Below, piece after piece: positions 41,405 through 45,936 of a DNA stretch of 64,000 nucleotides. The stretch is from Prochlorococcus sp. AG-409-P03 (GTDB taxonomy: Bacteria; Cyanobacteriota; Cyanobacteriia; PCC-6307; Cyanobiaceae). Below the pieces are notes generated by a model. That model searched no databases and was not told where the DNA came from. It worked only from the letters and a program-made list of their open reading frames with translations. The position numbers and the translations under genes are program-made. The stretch lies in contig QCKN01000004.1 in NCBI GenBank assembly GCA_003215295.1, forward strand, positions 1-64,000, given 5' to 3'. Each line of letters starts with the position of its first letter. Within the stretch, counting starts at the first letter, position 1.

Positions 41405-41478
41405 CGGGGCGTAGCGCAGCTTGGTAGCGCACCACTTTGGGGTAGTGGGGGTCGTGGGTTCAAATCCCGCCGCTCCGA
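41405..41478 (+). tRNA. tRNA-Pro (anticodon GGG)
   Basis: A complete cloverleaf: acceptor CGGGGCG with CGCTCCG (one G-T pair), D-loop AGCTTGGTAGC, anticodon stem CCACT/AGTGG around loop TTGGGGT (anticodon GGG), T-loop GTTCAAAT. The discriminator base is A at 41478, and CCA is not encoded. First of the two tRNAs bounding the 41.4-45.9 kb region. Confidence 0.95.
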
Positions 41479-42649: not shown

Positions 42650-42784
42650 TCAGCGCTTAACATCATGAGCGCAACCATCACCGCTGTAGTCATCACTATC
42701 GTAGTAACCGTTTCTAGTACCAAAGTAAAGGGTTATCAATACAAATGGGATAGAGCCCCAAACAAGTGCATTAGACAAGTCCAC
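42650..42784 (-). CDS. 44-residue membrane micro-protein with acidic tail
   Basis: The frame from GTG at 42784 to TGA gives one membrane span (VWGSIPFVLITLYFG, residues 8-22) and a polar, acidic tail NGYYDSDDYSGDGCAHDVKR. The tail composition is far from what random AT-rich DNA gives, so the frame is probably real. TTG at 42778 is an alternative start; an in-frame TGA lies upstream at about 42805. Another frame on the plus strand (42664-42816) covers the same DNA but is less protein-like. No family recognised. Confidence 0.5.
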   Translation of the reverse strand: MDLSNALVWGSIPFVLITLYFGTRNGYYDSDDYSGDGCAHDVKR

Positions 42785-43121: not shown

Positions 43122-43448
43122 TTATCTGTTTCTATAACCAGGCTCAAGTTGTCTTCGTGCGGCTTCTGTTCGCAAGACAATTTGCCTTCCAGTACTCATA
43201 ATGCTGTATCTAAGAGCCTTGCCAGATTTAAACATCGCCTCGCCAATAGCCTTCGTTCTTGCAACTTCAATTTGATATGCACGATCTACAGCCTTCTCGG
43301 CATCTACATTTGCGAGCTTTGCTTTTAAAGCCAACCTCTCAGTCTTTGACTTAGGTAATACGATCGGATCACTTTCTGGCTCCGCCCAACTCCAAAGCCA
43401 TCTGGCCTTGGGCTTTGTAATCGCTGAAGATTTGTTTTGCATGTCCAT
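43122..43448 (-). CDS. basic helical protein of unknown function, 108 residues
   Basis: Not recognised. It begins with a polar segment and WLWSWAEPESDPIVL, then a long, probably continuous helix rich in K, A, E and R (SKTERLALKAKLANVDAEKAVDRAYQIEVARTKAIGEAM), ending with RTEAARRQLEPGYRNR. The ATG at 43448 has a GTAGGA element 5 bases before it. It is the third gene of a packed minus-strand operon behind 56- and 28-codon ORFs (gap 6 bases). A coiled-coil or nucleic-acid binding role is only a guess. Confidence 0.6.
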   Translation of the reverse strand: MDMQNKSSAITKPKARWLWSWAEPESDPIVLPKSKTERLALKAKLANVDAEKAVDRAYQIEVARTKAIGEAMFKSGKALRYSIMSTGRQIVLRTEAARRQLEPGYRNR

Positions 43449-43454
43449 AGTTTC

Positions 43455-43625
43455 CTACCTAGATAACAATGCTGCAAGAGTTAACTGACCTCTCTGAAGG
43501 TTGGATGCCCAACTCCGAGTTTCAGGCAAACTTCCTTCAAGCGATCTCTTGAAGTAGCCACCTAACTCTGCAACATCTTGAAATGGTGGAGATGTTTTTA
43601 GGGGTGTCTTTAGATTGATGATCAA
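43455..43625 (-). CDS. 56-residue micro-protein, unknown
   Basis: TTG-to-TAG frame. The start overlaps the stop of the upstream 28-codon ORF in a TTGA, and the stop lies 6 bases before the next ATG, which is strong positional support. The sequence is soluble with a central DVAELGGYFKRSLEGSLPETRSWASNLQRG stretch and an end LTLAALLSR. No family recognised. It depends on translational coupling because no separate ribosome-binding site is seen. Confidence 0.5.
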   Translation of the reverse strand: MIINLKTPLKTSPPFQDVAELGGYFKRSLEGSLPETRSWASNLQRGQLTLAALLSR

Positions 43626-43708
43626 GCGGCAGGTGCGCTAAATAAGGCAAACAGGTAAAGGGAAAGGTTTGCCGCAATGGCAAGGCCCACTGAAATGAGC
43701 TTTTTCAT
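43622..43708 (-). CDS. 28-residue hydrophobic micro-protein
   Basis: ATG-to-TGA frame of 28 codons; a single predicted membrane span: MKKLISVGLA, then AANLSLYLFALFS, ending APAA. Two lysines at the N-terminus and an Ala-Pro end would also fit a signal-peptide-like stub. It is the first gene of the minus-strand run and its stop overlaps the following start (TTGA). Size resembles photosystem and cytochrome b6f small subunits, but no match is recognised. Confidence 0.5.
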   Translation of the reverse strand: MKKLISVGLAIAANLSLYLFALFSAPAA

Positions 43709-44652: not shown

Positions 44653-44769
44653 TCATGAAAACAAATGCCATCCTAACTGGCCAAAAATCCATACTCCTAA
44701 AGCAACCTTAAAGCCAGTAGCCAAAAGCCCCCATCCAATAATTTGCTTCTTAGATAAACCAAAAAACAT
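44653..44769 (-). CDS. 38-residue membrane micro-protein
   Basis: ATG-to-TGA frame: MFFGLSKKQIIGWG, then one span LLATGFKVALGVWIFGQLGWHLF ending in S. The lysine pair before a span with several tryptophans and glycines resembles thylakoid small subunits, but no match is recognised. About 110 bases separate it from the 45-residue ORF downstream. Positional support is modest. Confidence 0.42.
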   Translation of the reverse strand: MFFGLSKKQIIGWGLLATGFKVALGVWIFGQLGWHLFS

Positions 44770-45751: not shown

Positions 45752-45832
45752 AACCGCTCTTAAGAACCAATCCGAAAAAAAAGGAAAGTTAGTGCACTAC
45801 TCAGCTAGTCCTTTTCATGAAGAGAGTTGGAA

Positions 45833-45904
45833 TGGGTCGCCTGAGATTCGAACTCAGGACCAGCCGGTTAAAAGCCGGATGCTCTACCGCTGAGCTAGCG
45901 ACCC
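45833..45904 (-). tRNA. tRNA-Lys (anticodon UUU)
   Basis: Complete cloverleaf on the minus strand: acceptor GGGTCGC with GCGACCC, D-arm GCTCAGCGGTAGAGC, anticodon loop CTTTTAA (UUU), T-arm GTTCGAAT. The anticodon stem has one mismatch at its outer pair. Discriminator A is at 45833; CCA is not encoded. Its 5' end touches the CATG palindrome at 45905-45936. Confidence 0.95.
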
Positions 45905-45936
45905 AATTTTCATGCATGCATGCATGCATGAAAATT
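45905..45936. repeat. 32-bp perfect palindrome with five CATG units
   Basis: AATTTT, then CATG repeated five times (45911-45930), then AAAATT. The whole 32 bp equals its own reverse complement. It directly abuts the 5' end of tRNA-Lys (45904), so any transcript starting upstream would carry a long hairpin next to the RNase P cut site. A simple-repeat origin (slippage) is likely. Confidence 0.85.

Follow-up and report, generated by a model that had tools for sequence, protein, structure and literature searches.

The closest counterparts of the protein described here are found in uncultured cyanosiphoviruses related to Synechococcus phage S-CBS4, for example IMGVR_UViG_3300021963_000002 and IMGVR_UViG_3300044701_003128, which bear no family name. 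These viruses encode the same basic helical domain as P1, the product of a 108-codon frame of Prochlorococcus sp. AG-409-P03. In the viral carriers the domain is embedded in larger modular proteins, whereas P1 consists of the single domain with an N-terminus of its own and is encoded outside any phage gene cluster. S-CBS4 (NC_016766) is the closest cultured phage based on the major capsid protein of the carrier contigs (54.6%), but no P1 domain was found in the 22 kb that hold its portal, head, and capsid genes.

The P1 frame was analyzed as part of a window of 64,000 nucleotides, a term used here for the whole stretch of DNA under study. A preliminary description of the window had reported three minus-strand frames of 28, 56, and 108 codons (here P3, P2, and P1) between two tRNA genes and had read them as one packed operon. 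The three frames, their location between tRNA-Pro and tRNA-Lys, the TTGA overlap of the 28- and 56-codon frames, the 6-base gap between the 56- and 108-codon frames, and the GTAGGA element ahead of the third ATG were all recovered (Table 1). The 4.35 kb between the two tRNA genes also contain tauE, an EamA transporter gene, P4, and further small frames.

Table 1. Features of the P1 locus and its surroundings, in window coordinates
Feature	Position	Strand	Basis
tRNA-Pro, flanking the small-frame region	41405-41478		
44-aa membrane peptide, GTG start	42650-42784	-	conserved in some lineages, on the downstream side of P1
P1 frame, 108 codons, ATG start	43122-43448	-	window sequence
P1 domain common to cyanophage head-cluster proteins, about residues 31-108	43125-43358	-	profile and BLAST
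P1 ribosome-binding site AGGTAGGAAACT, with the P2 stop codon inside	43449-43460	-	sequence; AGGA-type sites in several relatives
P2 frame, 56 codons, TTG start	43455-43625	-	window sequence
P3 frame, 28 codons, ATG start	43622-43708	-	window sequence
P4, 110 aa, upstream neighbour of P3	43982-44314	-	alignment, 57 of 201 family genomes
38-aa membrane peptide MFFGLSKKQIIGWGLLATGFKVALGVWIFGQLGWHLFS	44653-44769	-	conserved in some lineages as an upstream neighbour
tRNA-Lys, flanking the small-frame region	45832-45905		

The earlier statement that such spacing is rarely accidental was not borne out. The TTGA frame stayed open for at least 50 codons in 5% of spacer shuffles, and some frame of at least 45 codons was present in 14% of mononucleotide shuffles of the 173-nt spacer between P3 and P1. 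The Shine-Dalgarno region of P1 reads AGG-TAG-GA-AACT-ATG, and the 6-base junction arises because the P2 stop codon TAG is part of this Shine-Dalgarno sequence; in AGGTAGGAAACTATG, the TAG of the P1 ribosome-binding site is the P2 stop. AGGA-type sites occur at a similar distance in several relatives that have no P2. No homologue of P2 was detected in 400 related genomes (best non-self match E 0.013), an outcome that the preliminary description itself had named as evidence against the 56-codon frame, and the P2 spacer could be aligned with none of the spacers of the relatives. P2 is probably not a gene and represents an unconserved frame in the spacer; its codon score is gene-like (z 3.5), which leaves room for a lineage-specific gene.

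P1 is a real gene under extreme purifying constraint, with a dN/dS of 0.019 among 18 LLI sequences. Searches with a single sequence and with a profile gave the same count of matches, 49 of 201 family genomes, a number that includes genome G188, whose match sits on a phage-like contig. The gene was present in LLI, LLII, LLIII, and many uncultured low-light lineages, with the locus linked to trmFO in many lineages, and it was found neither in HL strains nor in MIT9313. P1 belongs to the core genes of most lineages of low-light Prochlorococcus. Its carriers include genomes that we take to be NATL2A, SS120, and MIT9211, and those without it are presumably MED4, MIT9301, MIT9312, and MIT9313. It is also carried by AG-402-M23 and AG-402-O21, which are listed as LLI (PMC6370341). 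The predicted protein has a pI of 10.2 and a net charge of +10, and its AF2 model (pTM 0.45) contains helices at residues 35-75 and 77-101. An N-terminal tryptophan-rich segment (WLWxWxEPES) occurs in the cell version only.

An initial scan of viral sequences, made with a cell-only P1 alignment, gave no match because the patterns of that alignment were cell-specific. The sole P1 match outside low-light Prochlorococcus was a distant one on the 4.2-kb phage-like contig of G188 (L095), where the carrier gene adjoins a phage-endolysin-like gene. The 285-aa protein encoded there has 38 relatives in IMG/VR, and in every one of these loci the P1 profile picked up the domain, aligned from model position 23-34 to 106-107. 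Scanning with a joint alignment (A4) returned 79 viral loci, including a second type that is 52-55% identical to the window P1. The pooled viral scans comprise 110 open frames that match the P1 domain below 1e-5, a figure drawn from two overlapping scans in which some contigs were revisited, and the reversed and shuffled control sets gave zero P1-domain matches. The window P1 alone, when compared with the viral carriers by BLAST, was aligned over 83 ungapped residues (E 5e-19), and the identity between P1 and the phage domain is 40-55% without gaps. The shared region is a basic helical domain of 75-80 residues with the pattern SKTxR...AE...E..R...M...G.A...R...RRxxEPGYR. Sequence comparison thus establishes P1 as a homologue of a domain that occurs in modular proteins of a cyanosiphovirus-like head gene cluster, a relationship missing from the earlier account of the 108-codon frame.

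The phage carriers are modular proteins of 230-1100 aa encoded on uncultured cyanosiphovirus-like contigs. Portal and Mu-F-like minor head genes lie on one side of the carrier gene, and genes for a DUF2213 protease, cement, and major capsid proteins lie on the other. Cysteine motifs occur in both carrier types together with hydrophobic segments, and some carriers also have a RIO/Kdo-type kinase or an LRAT/NlpC-like module; based on these features, the carriers may be packaged or ejected, effector-like proteins. Head-cluster proteins on the IMG/VR contigs L155, L156, L163, L193, and L217 have repeated cysteine motifs and a hydrophobic segment together with RIO/Kdo/Pkinase, LRAT/NlpC-like, or P1-type modules. 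The GC content of the carrier loci is 54-65%, compared to 31-42% for the Prochlorococcus loci, and the carrier phages therefore probably do not infect Prochlorococcus today.

Among 283 genomes from across the cyanobacterial phylum, the domain was detected with confidence only in low-light Prochlorococcus, and the other cyanobacteria sampled had no P1 domain at a credible E-value. In the domain tree, which is unrooted and based on 79 columns, the 47 Prochlorococcus sequences form one clade (support 99/100) attached beside the closer viral type, and the phage copies split deeply into two types. Since the tree is unrooted and short, the direction of transfer was inferred from the distribution of the domain, which is narrow in cells and broad and deeply split in phages. 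Judged in this way, capture from phage to cell is about twice as probable as the reverse, or better, and the distribution suggests that P1 is an old phage domain retained by the cell. The opposite course, in which the domain has its origin in a cyanobacterial gene that phages captured once into their modular head-cluster proteins, is rather unlikely. It agrees with the cell sequences forming one clade, as a single transfer in either direction would fit, but it has to contend with the confinement of the domain among cells to low-light Prochlorococcus, with the deep division of the phage copies, and with the high GC content of the phages, whose likely hosts are without the domain. Host mimicry by phages was considered separately as the source of the shared domain and was given a low rating, since the Synechococcus-type genomes searched contained no P1 homologue.

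If the domain passed from phage to cell, the ancestor of LLI, LLII, LLIII, and related lineages would have captured one phage domain after LLIV had split off, without the cysteine-rich and hydrophobic modules of the phage proteins. The captured domain would then have acquired its short tryptophan-rich N-terminus, become a core cell gene, and subsequently been lost in high-light strains. A more specific form of this proposal, that a structural or packaged-effector domain of the cyanosiphovirus head was captured once after the LLIV split and became a near-invariant low-light core protein, lost in high-light strains and thus a niche-tied innovation, is put forward tentatively, with somewhat less than even confidence.

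For the cell, the more tentative proposal is that P1 is a small, basic rod of helices in the cytoplasm whose arginine/lysine face would bind an invariant partner, be it nucleic acid, a membrane surface, or a conserved complex; the tryptophan segment would serve as an anchor. The job of P1 would be housekeeping. A small adaptor or scaffold is the most likely role, given that P1 is without enzyme-like features and that its constraint fits a fixed partner over an arms race. The homology to a phage head-cluster domain could also point to an antiviral decoy, with P1 interfering with the assembly of phage heads or preventing superinfection. Such a role is improbable, as a dN/dS of 0.02 is the reverse of what an arms race would produce, the GC content of the carrier phages is far from that of Prochlorococcus, and high-light strains, which meet phages too, do not have P1.

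P3 is a real gene that encodes a conserved microprotein with a single membrane span. Homologues were found in 48 of 201 family genomes, with a dN/dS of 0.15-0.28; in the family alignment A10 and N14 are invariant and an SLYxWAL segment is conserved, the window P3 having F in place of the usual W. The gene is also present in genomes without P1, and no consistent neighbour was found when one was looked for at its alternative loci. A P3-type peptide of 26-28 aa is encoded at an unrelated locus of an LLIV genome (L130, 1096876-1096953, minus strand), without P1 or P4 beside it; this genome (G070), which we take to be MIT9313, has P3 only and neither P1 nor P4. As a 28-aa single-span peptide, P3 is similar to the small single-span subunits of cyanobacterial photosynthetic complexes, but it is absent from HL Prochlorococcus, which runs the same photosynthesis. 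Comparison of the P3 profile with PDB chains of these complexes gave no match, the only hit being TraM (E 0.14).

The neighbouring P4 gene probably encodes a secreted two-cysteine protein: a probable signal peptide and two invariant cysteines are evident in the alignment, the dN/dS is 0.27-0.34, and the AF2 model has a pTM of 0.72. Larger genomes of Synechococcus size contain P4 as well (E about 1e-24), and no P4 relative was identified in viral sequences, against which one pattern was scanned. Several further small genes were noted in the vicinity. The 38-aa membrane peptide near tRNA-Lys and trmFO is kept in 11 of 28 representative loci, and the 44-aa membrane peptide, with 68-82% identity in related lineages, lies near P1 also at loci that have neither P3 nor P4. 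In nine representative loci, including L093, P1 is followed after 361-458 nt by a same-strand gene for a conserved 100-aa protein without an assigned function (MQLYLVTWEFESSEDQTFAGDALIDYVESGKPIDEIEG...), which was found in genomes of LLI, LLII, and LLIII type.

The recurrent gene order is trmFO (opposite strand), P4, P3, and P1, accompanied by the 38-aa and sometimes the 44-aa membrane peptide. P1 and P3 are both present in 38 genomes and are adjacent in 29 of these and apart in the other 9. Their spacing in the relatives is 118-312 nt with an unconserved spacer, promoter and terminator scans of the locus gave results near chance level, and the P1, P3, and P4 families differ in their distribution among genomes. 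From these comparisons, P4, P3, and P1 appear to be neighbouring small genes that are inherited independently and form no obligate operon. That P3, P2, and P1 form one packed operon and a small functional system is highly improbable: the TTGA and 6-base junctions on one strand and the gene-like codon score of P2 speak in its favour, but P2 has no homologue, the distance between P3 and P1 is variable and unconserved, and these two genes are apart in nearly a quarter of the genomes that have both. Tight start/stop junctions by themselves overcall operons.

The preliminary description was therefore upheld in proposing undescribed small genes and set aside in joining three of them into one packed system. 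The homologue search it had suggested recovered P1 and P3, usually in the order P4-P3-P1, and no P2, and the Ka/Ks comparison agreed with P1 and P3 being coding. One product with a single membrane span (P3) and one long basic helix (P1) were correctly described, as was the lack of a recognized family for the small genes, and the three-gene set had left out P4, the conserved gene just upstream of P3. A different association, in which P4 outside the membrane, P3 within it, and P1 inside the cell make up one envelope-related system, has a very low probability. The P4-P3-P1 order kept across many lineages and the complementary predicted locations are compatible with it; against it are the differing distributions, with separate loci in several genomes, a terminator-like hairpin between P4 and P3 (from a scan near chance level), and evolutionary rates of P4, P3, and P1 that differ more than tenfold.

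No match to P1-P4 was found in Pfam, PHROGs, or NCBIfam, and profile searches of the PDB yielded nothing credible. When the P1 and P4 models from AF2 were compared by Foldseek, insignificant matches only and no structural neighbour were returned, and no description of the P1, P3, and P4 families was found in the literature. The overall interpretation, a neighbourhood of small genes in which P1 derives from one ancient phage-domain capture and has a housekeeping role, is held with about even confidence. P1 ties a core gene of most low-light lineages of Prochlorococcus, absent in high-light strains and MIT9313, to an undescribed cyanophage head-cluster module. If the capture is true, P1 would clearly exemplify how a phage domain can become fixed in a streamlined genome, and it would give a handle on the role of the domain inside the phage.

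The P1, P3, and P4 families are in none of the libraries searched, and phage-domain capture is an event of a known kind. Like domesticated bacterial phage genes in general, P1 is cellular, vertically inherited, single-copy, and under purifying selection; it has significant homology to phage proteins, with negative controls, and it is fixed at a stable trmFO-linked locus with a dN/dS of 0.019.
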